Source: Lachnospiraceae bacterium (lineage in GTDB: Bacteria > Bacillota > Clostridia > Lachnospirales > Lachnospiraceae). Taken from it: a DNA stretch of 52,327 nucleotides. The notes beneath the pieces were generated by a model that was given only the letters and a program-made list of their open reading frames with translations, was not told the DNA's origin and made no database searches. Below are positions 1,157 to 20,032 of the stretch, in pieces. Position 1 is the stretch's first letter, and the number at the start of each line of letters is the position of its first letter. A program made the translations under genes and the position numbers. The stretch covers positions 1 through 52,327 of the forward strand of contig JAEEOO010000020.1 of assembly GCA_016284315.1 (NCBI GenBank), in the 5' to 3' direction.

Positions 1157-3352
1157 CTACTTCTTAGTCTTTGAAGAAGTTTTTGAACTCTTCTTAATGG
1201 GAGTATTTCTCCTAATTCTTTCTTCGATGACTTTTGCAAGTTCAGTCTCGGTATAAGGAATAAACTTGAGTACTGATAATGACAAAGGTGCAACCTTAAC
1301 GGTTATGGACTGAGCCCTTCCGTCAGCCTGATTGTCAATGGCTCTCTTTATCTGCTGGTTAATGACTCCGCTTCCGCCAAATTCCTTGCTGTCTGTATTA
1401 AGAATCTCCTTATACTTTCCTTCATAAGGAACTCCGGAAACAATACTCTGCTCGATACCTGCAAAGTTAGCAACACAGATAAGCATATCCTCTGGGTCAT
1501 TGGTTTTTCTCACAAATGAAACATAGCAGCCCTGACGGTTAAGATTGCTGAGCCATTCAAAACTCTCGGGATCTTCGTTTGTCATAGATAATGCCGGCTC
1601 ATTTTTATACAGCTTGTTAAGTGCTGCGCAGATCTTGTCTGCCGCACTGTCAAAGCCCTCTGAAATAAGCTTATATCCGGGATGCATATATGAATACGCA
1701 ATTGAAAGTCTAAGGCTTCTGTATCTCTGATCCTCGCTTCCGGGGAAGAGATCAAGAAGGCCTCCGTTCTTTACAAGGAGCTCATCAGTCAAAGGAAGGA
1801 TGAATTTCTCGGCATACGAATATACAAGTTCATCCGTAAGCCTGTCGTGAAGTCCGCCTCTTTCGATGGGATCATGGGAAATATAATCAAAGTATTCCCC
1901 GATAAATCCTTCATTCCATTTATAGTCAAAGCCGATACCGTTGGAATCCTGTGAAACAGTCATTCCGCCGTGAGTTGAGCTGTCTTCTGCCATAACAACA
2001 GCATTTGCCTTAACAGCTTTGGTTGCTTTGATATACTCCTTCAGAAAAGCGATAGCTTCAAGATTCTCGTTATTGCCATAAATATTCGGGATCCAACCTC
2101 CGGCCTGCTTTCCGTAGTCGAGATAAAGCATCTGTGCTACTTTGGAAATACAGATTCCATCTGCATGGAATTCTTTTACCCAATACAAACCATTGGATAA
2201 CAAGAAGCTAATAACTTCAGGTCTGCCATACTGGAAAAGGCATCTCTTTCCATCCGCTGAAAGACCCTGACGAGGATCCCGGTGCTCAAAGAGACAGGTT
2301 CCGTCAAATCCTTCAAGGCTGCTTAGATCCCTTCCAAATCCTGAAGGTGACCATTTGAAAATAACGCCTATCTCAGCACTGTGAAGCGCATCTACGATCA
2401 TTTTGAGATTATTCTTATGTCCGATATTAGGATTTTCCTCAAAGAAATTGGAACTGATTCTCTCCTTAACATCAAACAAAGAACCGGGAGTCATAAGAAC
2501 GCAGGTATATCCCTTATCCTTAACAGCAGTAAGAAGATCTGCGATCTCCTTTTTAAGCTGCTTTATGCTTGAAGAAAAACGGTCGTAGGATACTTCATAA
2601 ATAAGCATCTCCTTACCGGCTTTCTTTTTAGACATAAAGGCTTTATCGGTCCACTTAAAGGAAACATTATCAGAGACAACAGAAACACCATCGGTTATCA
2701 TCTCTGAATAGGGATCATTCTTTTTTAAGATCTTATCGCCTTTAAGTTTGATCTCGTACTGGAATTTTTTATTATCAAGTTCGCCGGGGATAAAGAGCTC
2801 GAATACGCCGTTTTCAAGACGTTTCATCTGATATACTCTTCCGTCCCAGTTGTTGAATTCTCCTACAACGCTGACCCTCATTGCATTGGGAGCCCAAACT
2901 GCAAAGTGACATCCCACTTCACCTTCATGCTCCATGATATGAGCTCCGAAAACATCCTGGGCGTTTAAAAGCTTTCCGGACTTGAATTTATCAATATCTG
3001 CAGCCTTTATGATCCTTGAATGTCTGTAGGGATCACCAAGAAAAGCATTCTCATTAAAAATGCCCTTTCCTTCGTAGGTTACTTTATAAACATAGTTATT
3101 AACGTTTTTCTCCGGCAAAAGAACGGCAAAATAACCGTCCTCGTCAGCAACTTCCATAGGAGTTATCTGAGAAGAACCGTTTGCCGCAACCCATTTTATG
3201 CTTACCGCTTCAGCGCCGGGGAAATATGCCTGAACAAGAGTATTGCTTCCGTGTTTGTGCGGCCCCAAGAGATCCTGAGGGTGATCGCACTCGGAATATA
3301 TGATTTCTTCGATATCTGCCCAGTTCATGAGCTTGTAGAGCTTTTTATTCAT
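1157..3352 (-). CDS. GlgB-like GH13 protein lacking catalytic residues (pseudo-branching enzyme)
   Basis: At 731 residues this has the full length of bacterial 1,4-alpha-glucan branching enzyme (E. coli 728). The CBM48/N-domain is well kept (GCHFAVWAPNAMRVSVVGEF at 147-166), as are GlgB landmarks such as FDGTCLFEHRDPRQG (349-363), WIPNIYGNNENLEAI (420-434) and GFDYKWN (474-480). The active site is not. The region I Asp and His become Lys333 and Gly338 (GVIFKWSPSGF). The region II Arg and nucleophile Asp (RVDAV) become Cys401 and Ser403 (ICISKV). The region IV His-Asp becomes Thr-Asp (LPLTDE, 519-524), and the WGYQ substrate loop is gone. Only the acid/base Glu (MAED, E456) and one Asp (D523) remain. 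The frame is intact with an AAGGAG site 5 nt before ATG, so this is selected protein rather than decay. I infer a non-catalytic glucan-binding or regulatory role; branching activity is unlikely. The C-terminus is a Lys/Ser-rich tail. Confidence 0.88.
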   Translation of the reverse strand: MNKKLYKLMNWADIEEIIYSECDHPQDLLGPHKHGSNTLVQAYFPGAEAVSIKWVAANGSSQITPMEVADEDGYFAVLLPEKNVNNYVYKVTYEGKGIFNENAFLGDPYRHSRIIKAADIDKFKSGKLLNAQDVFGAHIMEHEGEVGCHFAVWAPNAMRVSVVGEFNNWDGRVYQMKRLENGVFELFIPGELDNKKFQYEIKLKGDKILKKNDPYSEMITDGVSVVSDNVSFKWTDKAFMSKKKAGKEMLIYEVSYDRFSSSIKQLKKEIADLLTAVKDKGYTCVLMTPGSLFDVKERISSNFFEENPNIGHKNNLKMIVDALHSAEIGVIFKWSPSGFGRDLSSLEGFDGTCLFEHRDPRQGLSADGKRCLFQYGRPEVISFLLSNGLYWVKEFHADGICISKVAQMLYLDYGKQAGGWIPNIYGNNENLEAIAFLKEYIKATKAVKANAVVMAEDSSTHGGMTVSQDSNGIGFDYKWNEGFIGEYFDYISHDPIERGGLHDRLTDELVYSYAEKFILPLTDELLVKNGGLLDLFPGSEDQRYRSLRLSIAYSYMHPGYKLISEGFDSAADKICAALNKLYKNEPALSMTNEDPESFEWLSNLNRQGCYVSFVRKTNDPEDMLICVANFAGIEQSIVSGVPYEGKYKEILNTDSKEFGGSGVINQQIKRAIDNQADGRAQSITVKVAPLSLSVLKFIPYTETELAKVIEERIRRNTPIKKSSKTSSKTKK

Positions 3353-9707: not shown

Positions 9708-10790
9708 TTATATTCTCTCACATAAAAGATCGCCCATCTCGTTGCAACCAACCTTGGTAGTACCTGCTGAATAAATATCTCCGGTCCTATAGCCGTCCTT
9801 AAGTACCTGACGAACTGCATTTTCAATAGCATCAGCTTCCTTATCAAGATCGAAGCTGTAACGAAGCATCATTGCTGCGCTAAGTACAGTTGCAATAGGA
9901 TTTGCAATATCCTGTCCCGCAATATCGGGAGCCGATCCATGGCTGGGCTCATAAAGTCCAAACTTTGAATCGTTAAGGCTTGCGCTTGAAAGCATTCCTA
10001 TGGATCCGGTTACCATGCTTGCTTCATCGGAAAGGATGTCGCCGAACATGTTCTCGGTAAGGATAACATCAAACTGAGCAGGATCTTTAACAAGCTGCAT
10101 AGCACAGTTATCAACAAGCATATGCTCAACGGTTACATCGGGATAGTTCTCGGCAACTTCATTTACAACTTTTCTCCAAAGTCTTGAAGAATCAAGTACA
10201 TTTGCCTTATCAACAGAAGTTACTTTCTTTCTTCTCTTACGAGCTATCTCAAATCCCTTGATGGCAATCCTTCTGATCTCGGATTCTGAATAGGTCAGAG
10301 TATCGATTGCTTTAAGTTCACCGTTTTCTTCTACTGTTTTTCTCTCTCCGAAATACAAACCACCGGTTAGTTCTCTCATGATAAGCATATCAAATCCGGC
10401 TTTACTGATTTCTTCTTTCAAAGGACAAGCAGCGGCAAGTTCTTCGTAAAGATAAGCAGGTCTAAGGTTAGCAAAAAGATTAAGAGCTTTTCTGATCTTT
10501 AAAAGTCCCGCCTCAGGTCTTTTTTCGGGTGGAAGTTTATACCAGGGTGAAGTTGATGTATTACCTCCGATAGATCCCATAAGTACCGCATCAGCAGCCT
10601 TTGCAGTGGCAATAGCTTCATCTGTTAAAGGTTCACCACATGCATCAATGGAGGCACCTCCCATTAGAATATCCGTAAATCTCATTTCATGTCCGTACTT
10701 AGAAGCAACCTTTTCAAGCACCTTTTTTGCCTGGGTCACGATTTCGGGACCGATTCCGTCACCGGGAATACACGTAATGTTTAAAATCAT
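9708..10790 (-). CDS. leuB: 3-isopropylmalate dehydrogenase
   Basis: It oxidatively decarboxylates 3-isopropylmalate with NAD+ to 2-oxoisocaproate in leucine synthesis. The 360-residue protein has the N-terminal [11 protein letters not shown] motif, the substrate-binding [10 protein letters not shown] near 131, the Mg-binding stretch [15 protein letters not shown] near 245, and the NAD-binding [12 protein letters not shown] near 276, all in LeuB form. GGAGG lies six bases before ATG. First gene of leuB-ilvD-ilvB. The upstream gap of 70 bp holds the yajC terminator hairpin, leaving little room for an independent promoter (see the terminator entry). leuA and leuCD are not in this window. Confidence 0.96.
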
Positions 10791-10817
10791 ATAGCACCTC
10801 CAAAGATAATTTTAGGT

Positions 10818-10845
10818 AAAAAAAGGGGACAGTCGAAACTGTCCC
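10818..10845 (-). terminator. Intrinsic terminator after yajC; possible attenuator for leuB
   Basis: On the minus strand GGGACAG (10839-10845) and CTGTCCC (10826-10832) pair around a 6-nt loop and run straight into CTTTTTTT. It ends yajC. Only about 30 bp separate it from the leuB ribosome binding site, so leuB is read either by leak-through or from a promoter overlapping the hairpin (a TAAAAT lies at its foot). Confidence 0.85.
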
Positions 10846-10860
10846 GAAAAGTCTGATTTA

Positions 10861-11226
10861 TTATGATTCAGATCCGGATCCCTGATCAGCTTTCTCAACT
10901 CTGCTGATGGCACTTTTGTCCATGGGAATACGACAGTTTCTATTGTTACCGAACTCAACAATGACAGTGTCATCTGAGATGTCAATAATAATGCCGTAGA
11001 AACCGGAAGTTGTTAAAACGCAATCGCCTACATCCATCGCATCAAGCATTTCCTTAACGCGCTTCTGCTCTTTTTTCTGAGGTCTCATAAAGAAGAACCA
11101 CATTGCAAAGATGATAACGCCGTAGATAGCGATCATACCTACCATGCTGAGCCAACTGCCGCCTTTAGCCTGAGCTTCCTCGGAAACTGCTTCAGCACTT
11201 TCGGTTAAAAGAACCAAATAATTCAT
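10861..11226 (-). CDS. yajC: Preprotein translocase accessory subunit YajC
   Basis: YajC is a small single-span inner-membrane protein of the SecDF-YajC accessory complex. With the ATG at 11226 (GGAGG five bases upstream) it has 121 residues; a TTG four codons earlier is embedded beyond that site and is rejected. One membrane span (about 24-46, WLSMVGMIAIYGVIIFAMWF) is followed by the family's RPQKKEQKR and a cytoplasmic DVGDCVLTTSGFYGIIIDI beta domain. Its own promoter and dyad lie upstream. It follows tgt, the common bacterial tgt-yajC order. Confidence 0.93.
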   Translation of the reverse strand: MNYLVLLTESAEAVSEEAQAKGGSWLSMVGMIAIYGVIIFAMWFFFMRPQKKEQKRVKEMLDAMDVGDCVLTTSGFYGIIIDISDDTVIVEFGNNRNCRIPMDKSAISRVEKADQGSGSES

Positions 11227-11242
11227 AGAATCCTCCAAGCAT

Positions 11243-11257
11243 AGTCACTAAGTGACT
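11243..11257. promoter_or_regulatory. Perfect dyad in the yajC leader
   Basis: AGTCACT-A-AGTGACT is a 7+1+7 perfect palindrome between the yajC start point and its ribosome binding site. It could be an operator or a tight RNA hairpin close to GGAGG (11232-11236). The role is inferred. Confidence 0.4.
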
Positions 11258-11282
11258 TATTTATTTTTTTCACACTTGTATT

Positions 11283-11311
11283 ATCATACACAAAAAACAA
11301 ACGTGTATCAA
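11283..11311 (-). promoter_or_regulatory. Promoter of yajC
   Basis: On the minus strand -35 TTGATA (11306-11311) and -10 TATGAT (11283-11288) are 17 bp apart. The spacer edges ATACAC and GTGTAT are inverted copies, so an operator may overlap the core promoter. Confidence 0.65.
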
Positions 11312-11365
11312 GCATTTTAGACTTTTTTCATAAACAAGTTAAAGAAAGTAAAGAAAATATTAAAA

Positions 11366-12508
11366 TCAATCTGCTCCCGCTTCCATCTGAGCCAAAGCAT
11401 TCTTCTTAAACTCTGCGAACCTGCCCTCGTCAAGTGCGTTCCTGATATCTTCCATAAGGTGGTTGTAGTAGTAAAGATTATGAAGAACACAAAGTCTAAG
11501 TCCAAGCATTTCACCGGCAACATGAAGATGTCTTATATATGCTCTTGAATATCTCTTACATGCGGGGCACTGACATCCTTCTTCAATAGGTCTGTCATCG
11601 TTTGCATATTTAGCATTCTTGATGTTGATCTTTCCGAACTTGGTATAAACGTGTCCGTGACGACCGTTTCTCGCAGGATAAACGCAGTCGAAGAAATCAA
11701 TTCCTCTATCAACGCCTTCAAGAATATTTGCAGGTGTACCAACGCCCATAAGGTAAGTAGGCTTGTTCTGAGGAAGATAAGGAACAACCTCTTCAAGTAT
11801 GTGGTACATCTCTTCATGAGTCTCACCAACGGCTAATCCACCAACAGCATAACCGGGAAGATCAAATTCAGAGATCCTCTTTGCATGCTCAATACGAATA
11901 TCGGGGAACACTGCACCCTGGTTGATACCAAAGAGCATCTGATCTTTATTTATAGTATCTTCAAGGCTGTTTAACCTGTCCATTTCCTTTTTGCAGCGCT
12001 CAAGCCATCTGGTTGTTCTGTCTACAGAAGGCTGAACATAGGACTTCTCTGCCTTTGAAGGAGGGCACTCATCAAATGCCATAGCAATAGTAGATCCAAG
12101 GTTTGACTGAATCTGCATGCTCTCTTCAGGGCCCATGAAAATGATCCTTCCGTCTACATGAGAATGGAAAGTAACGCCCTCTTCTTTAATTTTTCTAAGA
12201 CCTGCCAATGAGAAAACCTGAAATCCACCGGAATCGGTAAGGATAGGTTTGTCCCAGACCATGAACTTATGAAGACCACCAAAATCTTTGATAAGCTTAT
12301 CGCCGGGGCGAACGTGTAAATGATAGGTGTTTGACAGTTCCACCTGACATCCGATATTTTCAAGATCTTCTGTAGATACGGCGCCCTTAATGGCTCCAAC
12401 CGTTCCAACATTCATAAAAAGAGGGGTCTGAACAGTGCCGTGAACTGTTGTGAACTCGGCACGTTTAGCACGCCCCTCCGTTTTTAATAACTTATAATTA
12501 TTGCTCAA
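11366..12508 (-). CDS. tgt: tRNA-guanine transglycosylase (bacterial Tgt)
   Basis: Tgt exchanges guanine-34 of GUN anticodons for preQ1 in queuosine synthesis. The 380-residue protein shows the active-site Asp in ILTDSGGFQVFSL (near 93), the second Asp in DFFDCVYPARNGRHG (near 263-277), the substrate motif GGLAVGE, and zinc ligands in CQCPACKRY followed by HLH near 306-330. The start is TTG at 12506-12508, with GGGAG seven bases upstream. It overlaps the vanY end by 11 bases, so translation is coupled. Third gene of the lactonase-vanY-tgt operon. Confidence 0.96.
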   Translation of the reverse strand: MSNNYKLLKTEGRAKRAEFTTVHGTVQTPLFMNVGTVGAIKGAVSTEDLENIGCQVELSNTYHLHVRPGDKLIKDFGGLHKFMVWDKPILTDSGGFQVFSLAGLRKIKEEGVTFHSHVDGRIIFMGPEESMQIQSNLGSTIAMAFDECPPSKAEKSYVQPSVDRTTRWLERCKKEMDRLNSLEDTINKDQMLFGINQGAVFPDIRIEHAKRISEFDLPGYAVGGLAVGETHEEMYHILEEVVPYLPQNKPTYLMGVGTPANILEGVDRGIDFFDCVYPARNGRHGHVYTKFGKINIKNAKYANDDRPIEEGCQCPACKRYSRAYIRHLHVAGEMLGLRLCVLHNLYYYNHLMEDIRNALDEGRFAEFKKNALAQMEAGAD

Positions 12509-13574
12509 GATAAATCTCCCAAAATTCTTCTAGGGTAAGGTTTTCATTGTACATCACGGTAGCAGCCTCAACACCTACGTATCTAAAATGCCAGGGCTCG
12601 TATTCGATGGTGGTAATGTACTCTTTCTCCGCGGGATATCTCAAAATAAATCCATAATAATGAGCATTCTCCGCAAGCCACTTACCTGCAGCGGTATCAC
12701 CAAAGCCTTCGGTAAGCGAAGTATATGTATCACTAACAATATCAAGTGAAAGACCGGCTTCATGTTCACTTGCACCGGGAATGGTAACAGCCTGACCTGC
12801 AAGCTTATACGCCTCAAGGTAGCTCATACCGGCGTCCATGAACTTAGTGATCTTATTGTTATAAAGAAGGACCTGAAGCTGTGATGTACGATAAGGGCTT
12901 CTTACAGAAAGATTTACGCCATCAGCCTTTGCAGCCTTAAACATATCAACAAGATCGGGGATGATCCTTTCATCACACTGATGAACTCCGTAAATTGTTC
13001 CGAGAGGAACTTCATAGTCATCGGGAATAAAATGTGACTTATTGATAAGGATCAGTCTCCAGTCGTTAGGATCAAATTCAAAATTTTCATAATCTTCAAA
13101 TTCGATCTTTTCGGTCTGGACCGATTCTTCTTCACTGATCTCATCAAGGAACTCGCTGAGCTCATCCGCATGATAAAGGTCTTCTGATGAAACATCGCCG
13201 GATTCGTTTATCTCAACTTCCAGCATTATCTCTTCCTGATCCTGACCCTGCTCCTGCTCTGCGATATCTCCGGCATTAATAACAGCATTGTCTGCTATAA
13301 ACACGCTCTCGTCGAGTGCTTCAAAATCAATGGCCCAGTCCTGTTCCTCTTCCGGAGCCTCAGTTCCAAAAGAAAAACTGCTGAAAACAGGGAACAAAAG
13401 AAGACTGATGAATGAAACTCCTATCTTCTTTCCGTTGTTTCCAAGGAGATTGCCAAAAAGACAGCCCGCCACGAAAAAGCATCTGACAGGAGCGCTGATG
13501 ATCCTGCATATGAAATTTTTGCGGGCAAAGTTTCTAAGCTTCTGCCTTGTTTTTTCCTGTTTCGTGTAATACAT
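12498..13574 (-). CDS. Membrane-anchored VanY-type D-alanyl-D-alanine carboxypeptidase
   Basis: This zinc peptidase of the VanY/peptidase M15 family trims the terminal D-Ala of peptidoglycan stem peptides outside the membrane. The 358-residue protein has a basic N-terminus, one membrane span at about 51-69, a very acidic Glu/Asp/Ser linker at about 72-165, and a C-terminal M15 domain. Visible motifs are SPYRTSQ, the zinc motif SEHEAGLSLDI (His and Asp) and the last zinc His in EPWHFRYVG. The extended acidic spacer is longer than in most VanY enzymes. It follows the lactonase gene by 15 bp. The vancomycin-resistance context (vanHAX) is absent, so this is a housekeeping wall enzyme. Confidence 0.92.
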   Translation of the reverse strand: MYYTKQEKTRQKLRNFARKNFICRIISAPVRCFFVAGCLFGNLLGNNGKKIGVSFISLLLFPVFSSFSFGTEAPEEEQDWAIDFEALDESVFIADNAVINAGDIAEQEQGQDQEEIMLEVEINESGDVSSEDLYHADELSEFLDEISEEESVQTEKIEFEDYENFEFDPNDWRLILINKSHFIPDDYEVPLGTIYGVHQCDERIIPDLVDMFKAAKADGVNLSVRSPYRTSQLQVLLYNNKITKFMDAGMSYLEAYKLAGQAVTIPGASEHEAGLSLDIVSDTYTSLTEGFGDTAAGKWLAENAHYYGFILRYPAEKEYITTIEYEPWHFRYVGVEAATVMYNENLTLEEFWEIYLEQ

Positions 13575-13589
13575 AAAAATCCAATCTAA

Positions 13590-14636
13590 TTAAAGCTTAT
13601 GGAATAAGATACAGTTAGGTGTATGAACGGAAAGAGGTTTTCCATTCATGATAAGGGTGTGGGCTTTAAGATCAACCTTAAAGAAAGTCATTGTATCGGT
13701 CTCATGGTTAAGAGATACAAGAAACTTATTTCCGGGGAAGATCTCAGCATCCTTAGGATATTCTCCCGCAATAGGAAGAATGAAGTTCTGCTTAAGCTTA
13801 CCGGTCTTCTCATCTACGTTGTAAACTGCAACAGAGTTGTCTCCTGCAATTGAAGTAAGAAGATATTTGTAATCCTCTGAGAAACTAAACGCGCTGACTG
13901 CGTTTGTGCCTGATTCCCATGGAACGATTGACTGAGTCTGGATCTTGTTAAAGAAAGGAAGCTCATTTTTAAACTCATACTCATAAACATCGATATAACA
14001 TTTCTGCTCATGAAGGATGTAAATGAAATGTCCGTCCTTAGAGATCTTGATATGTCTGGGAGCAGACTCAAGCTCTGAACGAATGATATCAACAAGATGA
14101 ACCTTTCCGTTTAAAGTATCAAGGCCGTAAACATTAACATGGTCCATACCCTGATCAGCAACAAGAAGGTATCTGTTGTCATGAGTCATTCTCGCACAGT
14201 TAATATGGGGACGGAAGTTACGGTTTGCAGCACTTCCCATGCCCTTGTGATAAATTTCGTCGGTAATCTTATCGATTGAGCCGTCATCATTAAGAGAAAG
14301 CACAGTAAGCTTTCCGTCATGATAACCCGCAACAAAAAGGAATTTATCGGTATAGTCGGTTGATACGTAGCAGCCTCTCATACCATTGATGGAACACCAG
14401 TTAATGAACTCAAGGCGTCCGTCTTTGCAGATTTTAAAAGATTCAACACCAGTGTCGGTAATTGAATAGAGATATTTTCTGTTGTGAGATTCACACAGAT
14501 ATGAGGAGTTTGTGATCTCAACTTTATCTTTCTCGTAGAATCTTCCCTCTTTCATGTCGACATCATAGATACGTATTCCGTGTCTGTCGCCCATTGTGTA
14601 TGAAGAAACGTAAGCAATATATTTATCTTCTGCCAT
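13590..14636 (-). CDS. Lactonase-family seven-bladed beta-propeller protein (YbhE/YkgB type)
   Basis: Proteins of this Pfam Lactonase family include 6-phosphogluconolactonase, which hydrolyses 6-phosphogluconolactone in the oxidative pentose-phosphate pathway. Repeated blade motifs are visible, for example PHINCARMTHDNRYLLVADQG, HIKISKDGHFIYILHE and AFSFSEDYKYLLTS. The start at ATG 14636 (348 residues, AAGGA ten bases upstream) is chosen because the earlier ATG at 14678 lies inside the -10 box of the predicted promoter. The substrate cannot be deduced and no other pentose-phosphate gene is nearby. First gene of the operon with vanY and tgt. Confidence 0.88.
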   Translation of the reverse strand: MAEDKYIAYVSSYTMGDRHGIRIYDVDMKEGRFYEKDKVEITNSSYLCESHNRKYLYSITDTGVESFKICKDGRLEFINWCSINGMRGCYVSTDYTDKFLFVAGYHDGKLTVLSLNDDGSIDKITDEIYHKGMGSAANRNFRPHINCARMTHDNRYLLVADQGMDHVNVYGLDTLNGKVHLVDIIRSELESAPRHIKISKDGHFIYILHEQKCYIDVYEYEFKNELPFFNKIQTQSIVPWESGTNAVSAFSFSEDYKYLLTSIAGDNSVAVYNVDEKTGKLKQNFILPIAGEYPKDAEIFPGNKFLVSLNHETDTMTFFKVDLKAHTLIMNGKPLSVHTPNCILFHKL

Positions 14637-14676
14637 ATTATTCACATCCTTTTCACAGACTATTTCATACAGAAGC

Positions 14677-14705
14677 ATAATACCACATTTGTAAATAGAT
14701 AAAAA
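14677..14705 (-). promoter_or_regulatory. Promoter of the lactonase-vanY-tgt operon
   Basis: On the minus strand an extended -10 TGG-TATTAT (14677-14682) follows a weak -35 TTTTTA (14700-14705) at 17 bp. The -10 overlaps an in-frame upstream ATG and so decides the lactonase start. Confidence 0.5.
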
Positions 14706-14730
14706 GAGAAAATGTAAACAAAGATAAACC

Positions 14731-14759
14731 TTGAAAAAATGGCATGTATTATTTAATAT
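14731..14759 (+). promoter_or_regulatory. Promoter of aroC
   Basis: -35 TTGAAA (14731-14736) and -10 TAATAT (14754-14759) are separated by 17 bp on the plus strand. The leader is about 28 nt. It is divergent from the lactonase promoter. Confidence 0.7.
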
Positions 14760-14794
14760 GAAATAAGAATAATCTACATTTAAGGAGAAGGATC

Positions 14795-15892
14795 ATGTCA
14801 GGCTCTGTTTTAGGTAACAACATCAAAATCAGCACATGGGGCGAATCTCACGGACCTGCTCTCGGAGCAGTCATTGACGGCATTCCCGCAGGCCTTTCTT
14901 TAAGCGAGGAAGATATCCAGAAATTCCTAGACAGAAGAAAACCCGGAACAAGCTCAGTCACAACTCCCCGCAAAGAGGATGACAAAGTCGAGATCCTTTC
15001 CGGAGTATTTGAAGGAAAAACCACGGGTACTCCTATCTCCTGTCTTGTAAGAAATACATCCCAGCATTCTGCTGACTACAGCGAGATTGCGTCCTACTAC
15101 AGACCCGGACATGCGGATTATACATTTGATCAGAAATATGGATTCAGGGATTACAGAGGCGGAGGACGTTCATCGGGTCGCGAAACCATCGGCAGAGTCA
15201 TTGCCGGAGCCATCTGCTCAAAGATCCTTGGAGAAATGGGAATAACTGTAGAAGCTTATACCAAGTCAATCGGTGAGATTGAGGCTGATCTTAGCAATTA
15301 CAGCCGCGAAGCAGTTCTCTCCCTTCCCACTGCGATGCCCGATAAGGGTGCAAACGATAAAGCTATTGAATTCATAACCGGGAAACGCGAAGAATGCGAC
15401 TCCGTAGGCGGTGTTATGGAATGCAGGATAAATGGCGTTCCCGCCGGAATCGGTGAACCTGTATTTAATAAGCTTGATGCTTCCTTAGCAGGAGCTGTTA
15501 TGAGCATCGGAGCTGTTAAAGCAGTTGAGATTGGTGACGGAATTAAGGTAAGCACTTCTGTTGGAAGCGAGAACAATGATGCTTTTGGAATAGAAAACGG
15601 TGAGGTAATCAAAAAGACTAACCACAGCGGCGGAATCCTTGGCGGAATATCCGATGGTTCAGAGATTCTTGTCAGAGCCCATGTTAAACCCACTCCTTCA
15701 ATCTTCAGGCAGCAGGAAACAGTCAACAAATCCGGCGAAGAGATCTCCGTTCAAATAAAAGGACGCCACGATCCCATCATCGTTCCCAGAGCCGTTGTCG
15801 TAATGGAAAGCATGTGCGCCATAACTGTTCTCGACCTTATGATCTCCAACATGAGTTCAAGACTTGATAAAATTAAAGAATTCTATAAATAA
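14795..15892 (+). CDS. aroC: Chorismate synthase
   Basis: It converts 5-enolpyruvylshikimate-3-phosphate to chorismate using reduced FMN, the last step of the shikimate pathway. The 365-residue protein has the N-terminal WGESHGPALGAVIDGIPAG, the RRKPGTSSVTTPRKE motif near 47, HADYTFDQKYGFRDYRGGGR near 108-127 and the C-terminal GRHDPIIVPRAVVVMES. AAGGAGAAGG precedes ATG at good spacing. It is a single-gene transcript with its own promoter and terminator, the only large plus-strand gene in the window, and no other aro gene is nearby. Confidence 0.97.
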   Translation: MSGSVLGNNIKISTWGESHGPALGAVIDGIPAGLSLSEEDIQKFLDRRKPGTSSVTTPRKEDDKVEILSGVFEGKTTGTPISCLVRNTSQHSADYSEIASYYRPGHADYTFDQKYGFRDYRGGGRSSGRETIGRVIAGAICSKILGEMGITVEAYTKSIGEIEADLSNYSREAVLSLPTAMPDKGANDKAIEFITGKREECDSVGGVMECRINGVPAGIGEPVFNKLDASLAGAVMSIGAVKAVEIGDGIKVSTSVGSENNDAFGIENGEVIKKTNHSGGILGGISDGSEILVRAHVKPTPSIFRQQETVNKSGEEISVQIKGRHDPIIVPRAVVVMESMCAITVLDLMISNMSSRLDKIKEFYK

Positions 15893-17253: not shown

Positions 17254-17808
17254 CTATTGTTTTTTCTTCTTCACCAGTTCTCTTTTAATCTCGGCAAATG
17301 TTATCTTCTCGCCTTTATCTGCCAGCATTTCGAGATATTTGAGAAGTTTTTCTCTGGTGTAATCATGTAAAGGCGCGTTCTGTGTGCCCTTCCAATAGTA
17401 ATCAAGAGGATCTGAATCCTTGTAATCTTTGCCGCGGTAAACCTTACTGGCAGCAATACGGTCCATGATCATCTCAGCGATATACTTATCCGGCATAGGT
17501 GCAGGAACCATTATGTCGTCCTTGCCTCCGGATCCGTGTGAGTTATAATCGATCCAATATTCATAATGGTGTTTGTTCCTGCCTTTGTGGTGAAGCCATG
17601 CAGATGAATAACCTTTGTCTTCACGTTCTGCATTGTTTGGACTTCTGTCTCCCTGGAAATACTTTACGCCAACCCAGAATTCACTGGGGCTGTATTTCGA
17701 AAGGTCATGGGTTAATCCCTGCCAATAAAGGCCAATTTTGAAACAGCCTTTTCTAACCGCCCATCTGTGTTTTGTAATTGTAGTCAAATGGCCCCAAAAC
17801 TTACCCAT
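17254..17808 (-). CDS. DUF5662 family protein
   Basis: This 184-residue soluble protein of unknown function carries conserved His/Asp clusters: KHRW near 14, LTHDLSKYSPSEF near 32-44 and HHKGRNKHHYEYW near 73-85. These are reminiscent of a metal site but are not a proven HD domain. AGGA lies eight bases before ATG. It follows the GlgX-like gene by 15 bp and so is co-transcribed with it. The family is known from many Firmicutes and phages, without assigned activity. The C-terminus is very lysine-rich. Confidence 0.8.
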   Translation of the reverse strand: MGKFWGHLTTITKHRWAVRKGCFKIGLYWQGLTHDLSKYSPSEFWVGVKYFQGDRSPNNAEREDKGYSSAWLHHKGRNKHHYEYWIDYNSHGSGGKDDIMVPAPMPDKYIAEMIMDRIAASKVYRGKDYKDSDPLDYYWKGTQNAPLHDYTREKLLKYLEMLADKGEKITFAEIKRELVKKKKQ

Positions 17809-17823
17809 TGGTTACATCCTGTT

Positions 17824-19629
17824 CTACTTAGATTTTTCTTCTTTAACTTCTTTTGTCTTGCTTACAACAAGAGCTATGGTTCTCTCTGTAAGTGTGATCT
17901 TGTCATCCTTAGAAATTTCTACATCATCAGTTGAATTAACAATGCTCCACTCGCATCCCTTAGGCGCTCTGGGAAGAGATAAAACTGCCTTCTCCCAATG
18001 CATGTTGATAGCAAAGTAATAAAGAACACCTTTCTCGCTGACCATGATACCGATACTGTTCTTATAACTATCAAGAGATGTCATCCAAGCGCTTTCTCCA
18101 TGATAAGAAAGTTCAGGGAATCCGCATCCCTCAAGGTCAACCATGCTCATTTCCTTTTCATCATGATAAAAAGTATGTTCTCTCCTGATCTTTGCAAGGG
18201 CTGAGATAAAATCAAAATTGCTGTTCTTTCTCTTAAGTCCCTTCCAATCAAGATGAGTTACTTCATCGTCATGGCAATATGCATTATTGTTGCCCATCTG
18301 AGTATTGCCCATCTCATCGCCCATAAAGATCATGGGAACGCCGCTGCTCAGGAATAAAAGGATCAAAGCATTCTTCATCTGCTTTCTTCTGAGGGCATTA
18401 ACCTTTGGTTTATTGGTAGGGCCTTCTTCTCCACAGTTCCAGGTGCAATTGTAATCGCAACCGTCGCGGTTATCCTCGCCGTTATTCTCGTTATGCTTGT
18501 GATCATAAGCGAAGCAATCGGCAAGGGTAAATGTATTATAGCTATCGAGGTAATTGATAACAGCATAATCCTTGGGATTGTTCCTAAGCTTTGAAACCAC
18601 ATCAGCAAGAACGCCGGAATCACCTTTGATAAAGCGCCTTAATGCGTACATATACTCATCTCTGAAGAGTCCGTATCGCTTTGTAACAGGCTTTGAATCA
18701 TAATAATCCGTCTGGGGCATATTTACCCCCCAAAGGTTATCAGTAAAGATCTTTACATCTGACAAAATAGGACTGTCATCTATGATATCCATTGGAATAT
18801 TACTTCCAAGGACATGGAATCCGTCGATATGGTACTTAACTGCCCAGTATTCAAGAATGAAAGGAATCTCCCTCTTAGGAAAATCCTCAGGGAAATACAT
18901 CTGCATGATGATCTCCATACCATCCTTGTGGAAAGCATTTACCATGTTGGCAAATTCAGTCGCAGCATCTGTGCTTTCAGAATAAGCGCTTTTTGGTGTG
19001 TAATAAAGGCCTTGGCAGTAGCCCCAGTAGTTATATCTTCCTGTCTTTTTGTCATTTTCATTGAATTCGTAAGCCGGCTGAAGTTCAATAGATGTAACGC
19101 CAAGCTTCTTCAGATAGTCCTTCTTCTCAGAAAGTCCCTTAAAAGTACCTTTATGCTTAACTCCAGATGAAGGATCCATAGTAAATCCACGTACATGAAG
19201 AAGGTATAAGAACATATCTTCATAAGAAACAGTGGGCTTCTTGTCATCTTTCCAGTCAAATTCCGGAATAACGCATGCTTTTAAAGCCTTTGAAGGATCG
19301 AAATCTCCAAAGGAAAGCTTATCTGTAAAGCCTTCTGCTCTTTCGTCGGTATAATATTTATCATTGCATATATAGGAATAACTGTGGGAATTAGGATCAA
19401 AGTCGGAAATAATTGCAGAATAAACGTTGCCAATGCGCTCGTTTTCGGTAAACATATGCTTAAACGCAAGCGAACCATTGGTTTTATCATATACTGCAAC
19501 GCCTAATTTACTATTTTTAGGGAAATTGCCACTGTTAACAGTAAATCTACATCCTTCCGGAGTGCAAATTACCTTGCAAGGATAAAGCCTAAAGATATCT
19601 GTAGTTGATAAAGAAATATTTTTGCTCAT
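17824..19629 (-). CDS. GlgX/isoamylase-like GH13 protein lacking catalytic residues (pseudo-debranching enzyme)
   Basis: The 601-residue protein has an N-terminal beta domain (about 10-100) and a GH13 barrel that retains the isoamylase/GlgX signature: KHNENNGEDNRDG (378-390), then NCTWNCGEEGPT (394-405) and SSGVPMIFMGDEMGNTQMGN (428-447). The catalytic positions are replaced. Region I DVVYNH reads QMYFPE (243-248). Region II GFRFD reads GFHVL (270-274), so the nucleophile Asp is Leu274 and the Arg is His272. The region III Glu aligns with Asp297, and region IV HD reads YN (364-365). It should be hydrolytically dead. The frame is intact. A consensus promoter ends seven bases before the ATG with no ribosome binding site, so the mRNA may be leaderless. 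First gene of an operon with DUF5662, GNAT, the 77-residue gene and YbaK. A sensory or carbohydrate-binding role is inferred. Confidence 0.87.
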   Translation of the reverse strand: MSKNISLSTTDIFRLYPCKVICTPEGCRFTVNSGNFPKNSKLGVAVYDKTNGSLAFKHMFTENERIGNVYSAIISDFDPNSHSYSYICNDKYYTDERAEGFTDKLSFGDFDPSKALKACVIPEFDWKDDKKPTVSYEDMFLYLLHVRGFTMDPSSGVKHKGTFKGLSEKKDYLKKLGVTSIELQPAYEFNENDKKTGRYNYWGYCQGLYYTPKSAYSESTDAATEFANMVNAFHKDGMEIIMQMYFPEDFPKREIPFILEYWAVKYHIDGFHVLGSNIPMDIIDDSPILSDVKIFTDNLWGVNMPQTDYYDSKPVTKRYGLFRDEYMYALRRFIKGDSGVLADVVSKLRNNPKDYAVINYLDSYNTFTLADCFAYDHKHNENNGEDNRDGCDYNCTWNCGEEGPTNKPKVNALRRKQMKNALILLFLSSGVPMIFMGDEMGNTQMGNNNAYCHDDEVTHLDWKGLKRKNSNFDFISALAKIRREHTFYHDEKEMSMVDLEGCGFPELSYHGESAWMTSLDSYKNSIGIMVSEKGVLYYFAINMHWEKAVLSLPRAPKGCEWSIVNSTDDVEISKDDKITLTERTIALVVSKTKEVKEEKSK

Positions 19630-19636
19630 AGAATAG

Positions 19637-19665
19637 ATTATAACTTATTGCTAAAAGATAAACAA
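19637..19665 (-). promoter_or_regulatory. Promoter of the GlgX-like operon, predicted to give a leaderless mRNA
   Basis: On the minus strand -35 TTGTTT (19660-19665) and -10 TATAAT (19637-19642) are 17 bp apart. The expected start point falls at 19629-19630, that is on the A of the ATG or one base before. No Shine-Dalgarno sequence fits in the remaining bases. Confidence 0.7.
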
Positions 19666-19676
19666 GAAGTTATACT
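19648..19676 (+). promoter_or_regulatory. Promoter of the DUF1292 gene, overlapping the divergent promoter
   Basis: -35 TTGCTA (19648-19653) and -10 TATACT (19671-19676) are 17 bp apart on the plus strand. Its -35 and spacer interleave with the -35 and spacer of the opposing GlgX-like promoter. Confidence 0.6.
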
Positions 19677-19717
19677 AACAGGTAACTGATGAATTTTGTT
19701 TCAAATGGAGGAAATAT

Positions 19718-20032
19718 ATGGCTAACAAATTCGATACTCCCGATGAGGATATGACCGTAACCATCACTCTTGACGACGATACCGAAGTTACCTGTGATGT
19801 TGTTACAATTCTTACTGTAGAGGACAAGGACTATATCGTAGTTCTTCCTACCAATACAAACGGTCGCTTCCCCGAGGATGAAGTCTGGATCTACGGATAC
19901 TCTGAGAATCCCGAAAATCCCGATGATGAGCCTGAGCTTATCTACATCGACGACGAAGACGAGTACGAGAAAGTTGCAGATGCATTTGATGAATATCTTG
20001 ATGCTCTCGACTTTGATGACGACGAAGAATAA
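19718..20032 (+). CDS. DUF1292 family small acidic protein
   Basis: This 104-residue, extremely acidic protein matches the DUF1292 type (YrzB-like), found in Firmicutes and without known function: a beta-rich core (TVTITLDDDTEVTCDVVTIL, then DYIVVLPTN) and a C-terminal acidic helix that ends DFDDDEE. GGAGG lies about seven bases before ATG. In many Firmicutes such genes sit near Holliday-junction resolvase and alaS; here it stands alone, divergent from the GlgX-like operon, with its own promoter and a strong terminator. Confidence 0.88.
   Translation: MANKFDTPDEDMTVTITLDDDTEVTCDVVTILTVEDKDYIVVLPTNTNGRFPEDEVWIYGYSENPENPDDEPELIYIDDEDEYEKVADAFDEYLDALDFDDDEE

Follow-up and report, generated by a model that had tools for sequence, protein, structure and literature searches.

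A GlgX/isoamylase paralogue without catalytic residues is retained in Lachnospiraceae, probably as a glucan-binding protein

The locus and its genes

The window analyzed here is the whole stretch of 52,327 nucleotides of contig JAEEOO010000020.1 from a Lachnospiraceae genome (GCA_016284315.1). The gene under study lies on its minus strand at positions 17824-19629, where an open reading frame runs from ATG to TAG with zero internal stops and encodes a protein of 601 aa (P0001). The initial annotation, made from the sequence, had described it as a debranching-enzyme homologue devoid of catalytic residues, encoded in a frame without stop or shift and conserved in the isoamylase/GlgX signature, all of which was borne out. 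The frame is intact, both KHNENNGEDNRDG and WNCGEEG are found in the protein, and the NCBIfam debranching model TIGR02100 matches it with an E-value of 8.4e-82 and 275.3 bits, which is below the curated cut-off of 640.9. The features to which we refer are the following:

1157-3352, minus strand: second GlgB paralogue (P0002, 731 aa), a possible companion, from alignment
17254-17808, minus strand: DUF5662 gene (PF18907), 15 nt downstream of the P0001 gene on the same strand, presumably co-transcribed with it
17824-19629, minus strand: non-catalytic GlgX/isoamylase homologue P0001, 601 aa, from the frame, profile match and fold model
18235-18510, minus strand: conserved border-lobe and glucan-contact loops, residues 374-465, with KHNENNGEDNRDG, WNCGEEG and GDEMGNTQMGNNNAYC, from conservation and reported contacts (PMC12510319, PMC9530166)
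18517-18558, minus strand: degenerate region IV, residues 358-371, with Tyr364-Asn365 for His-Asp, from alignment
18724-18765, minus strand: degenerate region III, residues 289-302, with Asp297 at the acid/base, from alignment
18778-18846, minus strand: degenerate region II, residues 262-284, with His272 and Leu274 at the Arg and nucleophile, from alignment
18880-18918, minus strand: degenerate GH13 region I, residues 238-250 (MEIIMQMYFPEDF), and the start of a shortened segment, from alignment
19630-19717: intergenic stretch between the P0001 gene and the divergent DUF1292 gene, the presumed promoter region by its position
19718-20032, plus strand: DUF1292 gene, divergent from the P0001 gene
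20040-20067, plus strand: terminator-like hairpin 3' of the DUF1292 gene, a pattern match

By sequence, the closest solved relatives of P0001 are plant ISA1, the Chlamydomonas isoamylase and bacterial GlgX/TreX. The AlphaFold2 model of the protein (pLDDT 92.7, pTM 0.92) had as its top Foldseek match 9j6x_B (E 1.3e-47), a chain of the rice ISA1-ISA2 complex other than the one named ISA2; rice ISA1 ranked second and the first chain named ISA2 46th. The TM-score to the rice ISA1 complex was 0.82 by query length, so the predicted model has the isoamylase fold with its (beta/alpha)8 barrel. No match to PF02922 (CBM48) was obtained in P0001 at E-values up to 1, and residues 21-93 form seven predicted strands.

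Loss of the catalytic residues and of two loops

None of the seven GH13 catalytic positions is retained in P0001. The substitutions named in the initial annotation were all seen in the alignment: Pro247-Glu248 occupy the region I Asn-His position, His272 that of the catalytic Arg, Leu274 that of the nucleophile Asp, and Tyr364-Asn365 that of the region IV His-Asp. Asp297 is aligned to the acid/base Glu, among Thr296, Asp297 and Leu299. The nucleophile column is a gap in the HMMER alignment and Leu274 in the MAFFT alignment, with no Asp under either.

Relatives gathered in several genome searches were aligned (149 rows) and split into two classes solely by how many residues separate positions 246 and 262, independently of the nucleophile column. 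The nucleophile Asp was present in all 40 long-loop rows, which we refer to as true GlgX, and in 0 of the 109 short-loop rows. A close relative with the Asp in place had been proposed as the case that could overturn the initial annotation; none was found, and the nearest relative detected (L041, 64% identity) also lacks it. Since all 109 short-loop rows, P0001 included, are without the Asp, a sequencing error is no explanation.

Removal of near copies and of rows shorter than 500 residues left 102 short-loop members and 35 true GlgX. Among the former, 43 keep none of the seven catalytic residues, 42 keep one, 15 two and 2 three; all seven are present in 34 of the 35 true GlgX, and the remaining one, which has a gap, keeps five. 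The segment between residues 246 and 262 comprises 14-15 residues in the 102 members versus 59 in the 35 true GlgX, and that between residues 274 and 293 comprises 17-18 versus 32. By alignment, the putative cleft is thus remodelled by two shortened active-site loops, beyond point mutation. Two features go beyond the initial annotation, namely these two loop deletions and the fact that the loss is common to a family-wide clade and not peculiar to one gene.

With the motif columns removed, the loss label corresponded to one change (SH-aLRT 100) on a tree of 89 rows (78 + 11 after thinning at 62% identity), built by a quick method with a midpoint root and no plant rows. The uniform loop deletions and the single change on the tree therefore argue for one event. 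The nucleophile position varies across the clade (Asn, Met, Leu, Val, Lys and others), and mean identity is 39% within the clade versus 56% within true GlgX. We also considered new, clade-specific catalytic residues, and at the limits used the search returned a single clade-specific conserved column, Asp498.

Distribution across Lachnospiraceae

Among 397 genomes belonging to the family of the window genome, 330 gave a match at an E-value of 1e-10, true GlgX included. In a scan with one genome per species, the nucleophile-less loci among the best 80 of 590 confirmed loci came from Lachnospiraceae MAGs, Butyrivibrio, Acetatifactor, Roseburia, Dorea, Oribacterium, Velocimicrobium porci and Clostridium sp. 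chh4-2; cultured, named carriers within these best 80 of 590 include Velocimicrobium porci and Butyrivibrio sp. WCD3002. We take the family of the carriers to be Lachnospiraceae from the names of the matched loci, a few of which are named merely Clostridia, Eubacteriales, Eubacterium or Bacillota.

At the level of the order, a profile of 28 clade members was searched against 392 genomes and the results were counted by eye. In the family, 122 of 131 genomes scored as members, one had a true GlgX only and eight had no match. None of the 261 genomes of other families scored as a member; weaker matches were obtained in 51 of these 261, and the three that were read (L187-L189) have intact motifs. 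Score alone cannot part members at 366-384 bits from true GlgX, as a score of 372.5 bits was obtained for one true GlgX from another family. This class holds 12 genomes: six were read and are members (L181-L186, the last cut by a contig end), and the other six were counted by their short frames of 571-608 aa, versus at least 676 aa in the true GlgX that were read from other families. At the level of the class, counted by eye, 14 of 16 family genomes carry a clade member versus 0 of 375 others, and eight other genomes that passed an E-value of 1e-60 were fetched and read, with motifs intact. Within this sampling, the clade does not extend beyond one family.

Retained glucan contacts and proposed role

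The border lobe of maize ISA1 has been reported to harbour four missense alleles at surface positions away from the active site, yielding variants without detectable activity; these alleles also alter the ratio of starch to phytoglycogen, and one of the affected residues, W578, touches glucan in the secondary site SBS2 (PMC12510319). We mapped the four sites onto P0001 through the rice ISA1 alignment (maize numbering equals rice + 11 at all four). Maize R504, N561, W578 and N628 correspond to R331, N380, W397 and N447 of P0001, which are kept in 101, 102, 98 and 102 of the 102 members, respectively.

A second comparison was made with GlgX of S. venezuelae, for which contacts to acarbose are described both at subsite -1 (W222, Y224, H271, D342, E378, W380 and H449) and beyond it (R212, E470, N534 and Y536) (PMC9530166). 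The numbering offset was 3 at eight residues, and the comparison covers these contacts other than R212 and, for the plant proteins, the four border-lobe sites with SBS2. W222, E470, N534 and Y536 correspond to W202 (102/102), E385 (102/102), N449 (102/102) and Y451 (98/102), E470 being matched by Glu in only 17 of 35 true GlgX. The Y224 equivalent is Tyr in 89 members and Phe in 13. The D342 and H271 equivalents are lost in all 102 members, that of E378 in 85 and that of H449 in 74, and the W380 equivalent is Trp in 22.

Columns with at least 95% identity were also counted by region. The loop from KHNE to WNCGEEG has 14 of 32 such columns in the clade versus 16 of 32 in true GlgX, the GNNN loop 11 versus 13 of 35 and the C domain 11 versus 9 of 105; in region III the counts are 0 versus 24 of 45. 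Conservation is nonetheless partial, as only 48 of the 135 columns that are at least 97% identical in true GlgX stay at 95% in the clade. Some of the conserved residues may owe their retention to folding and not to binding.

We consider it probable that P0001 belongs to a non-catalytic GlgX/isoamylase (GH13_11) paralogue in which hydrolysis was lost a single time, in a Lachnospiraceae ancestor, and which has been retained as a glucan-binding scaffold or regulator. Glucan binding is proposed mainly because the catalytic residues and half of the cleft are lost while the outer glucan contacts stay. In the proposed sequence of events, a single loss of hydrolysis in that ancestor would have been accompanied by deletion of the two active-site loops. 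The border lobe, the glucan-contact region on the beta6-beta8 side, is conserved, and its surface would bind alpha-1,4-glucan chains of glycogen. By analogy with the role proposed for non-catalytic ISA2 in starch synthesis, the protein would then act on cell glycogen as a scaffold, shield or recruiter and so influence how it is branched or turned over. From the conservation and the plant precedent together, we infer a glucan-gripping scaffold or regulator acting in glycogen metabolism.

Neighbouring genes

No promoter pattern was matched on the strand of the P0001 gene within 19630-19717. Of the 102 clade loci whose downstream flank spans at least 500 bp, 62 have a same-strand DUF5662 gene no more than 800 bp downstream, and in 52 of those 62 it is within 100 bp or overlapping (stop to stop); downstream of true-GlgX loci it was found in 0 of 40 (37 with at least 500 bp of flank). 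This adjacency speaks for a different function, in which glucan binding is gone and the protein is a sensor or protein-binding module whose surface serves another ligand or partner, such as DUF5662. We regard this as unlikely, given that DUF5662 occurs in 30 of 40 genomes that lack the protein, nearly as often as in carriers (36 of 40; Fisher p 0.14), and that the residues kept are known to contact glucan in ISA1 and GlgX. By the same counts DUF5662 was dismissed as an obligate partner: its adjacency is striking but its presence is independent of the non-catalytic GlgX.

The predicted model of DUF5662 is confident (pLDDT 90.5) and all-helical, and no PDB structure matched it at an E-value of 0.001 or better, the best being 0.72. 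Ten His/Asp positions are invariant in 57 DUF5662 sequences (H7, H14, H34, D35, H73, H74, H80, H81, D87 and D116), from which the protein is perhaps metal-binding; to call it an HD-type hydrolase from the same pattern would be a guess. The gap between the clade gene and DUF5662 is about 570-650 bp in L055, L057, L070, L072, L081 and L181-L183. Upstream of the clade gene, a UvrD-type helicase was found in 23 of 54 loci and gltX also in 23 of 54 (the window included; some loci are cut by contig ends). These frequent neighbours (helicase, gltX and DUF5662) are not glycogen genes. In 10 of 54 loci the clade gene has a close neighbour, at a median distance of 4 bp, that encodes about 213 aa and looks membrane-bound by eye.

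Glycogen metabolism, debranching enzymes and selection in carriers

Glycogen synthase (GlgA) was detected in 40 of 40 carriers and, among family genomes that lack the protein, in 38 of 40; present in 78 of 80 genomes, it is uninformative, and its co-occurrence was set aside as evidence. Two glycogen phosphorylases were found in each of 12 carriers.

The plant system also suggests that the protein could be an obligate regulatory subunit of an active GlgX, as is reported for ISA2 with ISA1, the closest functional precedent (PMC12510319, PMC12892837). A TIGR02100 scan of 79 carriers identified six that also hold a true GlgX by score (three over the curated cut-off and three just under; the two that were read, L191 and L192, are intact). 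No true GlgX was seen in the other 73 carriers, and completeness is 90% or more in 77 of the 79; the carriers were assigned by score and counted by eye, part of them having been read, and the share is biased, 61 of the 79 having been picked because they gave one match. As most carriers examined are without it, true GlgX would be an unlikely partner in general, and we deem an obligate role of this kind improbable.

Debranching was surveyed in 12 carriers through three families, GlgX, type I pullulanase and GDE_C. Type I pullulanase was over the cut-off in two and GDE_C in four, one genome having both. In seven of the 12, the genome of the window (81% complete) included, none of GlgX, type I pullulanase and GDE_C was over the cut-off. 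Six genomes (G282, G271, G391, G345, G304 and G022) are near-complete and have two glycogen phosphorylases and none of these three families over the cut-off. The genome of the window holds an intact GlgB on another contig (C13) and other GH13 proteins, one of which may open branches.

The seven carriers without the surveyed families could be reconciled with residual or unconventional catalysis by other residues of the clade protein, and BmaN1, an aberrant GH13 enzyme, is reported to be active with one of its three catalytic residues replaced (PMC5347038). Such catalysis is highly improbable here, as BmaN1 is without only that one residue whereas the nucleophile position of the clade is varied, a single clade-specific residue (Asp498) is conserved at the limits used and two cleft loops are shortened. 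Gene decay or assembly error is refuted for the clade, for although one in-frame stop occurs in each of G016, G297, G100, G345 and G232 among the matches listed, the remaining listed matches are stop-free, NG86 dN/dS is 0.06-0.18 in the pairs listed with finite dS, the loss is one change on the tree and retention is family-wide.

The view of the initial annotation that this is a maintained protein agrees with the NG86 dN/dS of 0.07-0.09 in four pairs of relatives with dS below 1, a sign of purifying selection among them; these estimates rest on pairs of relatives, P0001 having no near enough relative of its own. With GlgX signatures retained in proteins that are predicted to be non-catalytic, the debranching capacity of Lachnospiraceae may be over-annotated.

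A second GlgB paralogue as candidate partner

The window also encodes P0002, a second GlgB paralogue with Ser at the nucleophile and Cys at its Arg. It has lost the region I residues and the region IV His and retains the aligned Glu and the Asp of region IV. Intact and degraded active sites are mixed among the 36 GlgB rows listed, in which the intact GlgB of the same genome appears twice, and the losses among P0002 relatives look repeated rather than single. In an Oribacterium MAG (L063), the non-catalytic GlgX and a nucleophile-less GlgB paralogue are adjacent on one strand (9788-12397 and 12291-15854, plus).

At an E-value of 1e-90, a second GlgB was detected in 34 of 40 carriers versus 11 of 40 non-carriers; this enrichment is confounded, as the carriers came from the top of the P0001 list and are perhaps nearer to the window genome, and the GlgB class was assigned by E-value and not by a tree. 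Positions of the two genes were compared over the 150 places listed in the genome searches, where 94 genomes have both the non-catalytic GlgX and the second GlgB. Tight synteny of the pair was rejected: both are on one contig in 32 of these 94, with 18 of the 32 within 35 kb and the others up to 1.4 Mb apart.

Within the preferred reading of a glucan-binding scaffold or regulator, the second GlgB paralogue would be the favoured candidate partner. We tentatively propose, as a possibility with the odds against it, that the two form a dedicated non-catalytic glycogen scaffold in Lachnospiraceae, a separately evolved bacterial counterpart of the plant ISA1/ISA2 architecture. If this is true, the scaffold would set glycogen structure by gripping chains and not by cutting them. 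Why a non-catalytic isoamylase stays under selection is described as not understood in the plant field (PMC12510319), and with cultured carriers, among them Velocimicrobium porci and Butyrivibrio sp. WCD3002, the bacterial case makes this question of retention testable in simple organisms.

Comparison with known systems

At the level of abstracts and passages, we encountered neither an account of bacterial GlgX proteins forming a non-catalytic clade nor a paper that uses the term DUF5662. A protein of Butyrivibrio hungatei MB2003 named 'glgX2' is given as a glycogen debranching enzyme of 648 aa, with no CBM48 listed in the portion of that report consulted (PMC5716241); from its length and the missing CBM48 entry one might guess that it is a clade member.

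P0001 shares with GlgX/TreX/isoamylase (TIGR02100) the fold and the signature loops KHNE..NRDG, WNCGEEG and GNNN.YC, and differs from them in having no catalytic residues, two shortened loops and a score of 275 bits versus 640.9. It resembles BmaN1 as a GH13 member with a catalytic residue replaced, but BmaN1 keeps two of three residues whereas P0001 keeps none of its seven positions.

The closest parallel in function is plant ISA2, a retained isoamylase that is itself inactive. Like ISA2 (PMC12510319), the clade combines a GH13_11 fold with clade-wide loss of the nucleophile and most catalytic residues, long retention and a proposed glucan-binding role, and it thus shows the clade-wide catalytic loss with retention that marks the ISA2 class. 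On the other hand, P0001 is nearer in sequence to ISA1 (phmmer 2.6e-65) than to ISA2 (7.2e-30), and most of the carriers examined show no copy of the enzyme with which ISA2 usually pairs. For ISA2, SBS2 is reported to be missing and SBS1 present, whereas the clade keeps the SBS2/border-lobe residues (W397 in 98/102), the comparison covering the SBS2 half. We do not class the clade as an ISA2 member because this tested site pattern differs. As to descent from the plant/Chlamydiae ISA clade, phmmer and Foldseek place P0001 nearer to ISA1 and GlgX than to ISA2, and the tree is without plant rows. The bacterial protein would thus work like ISA2, but it apparently arose separately.
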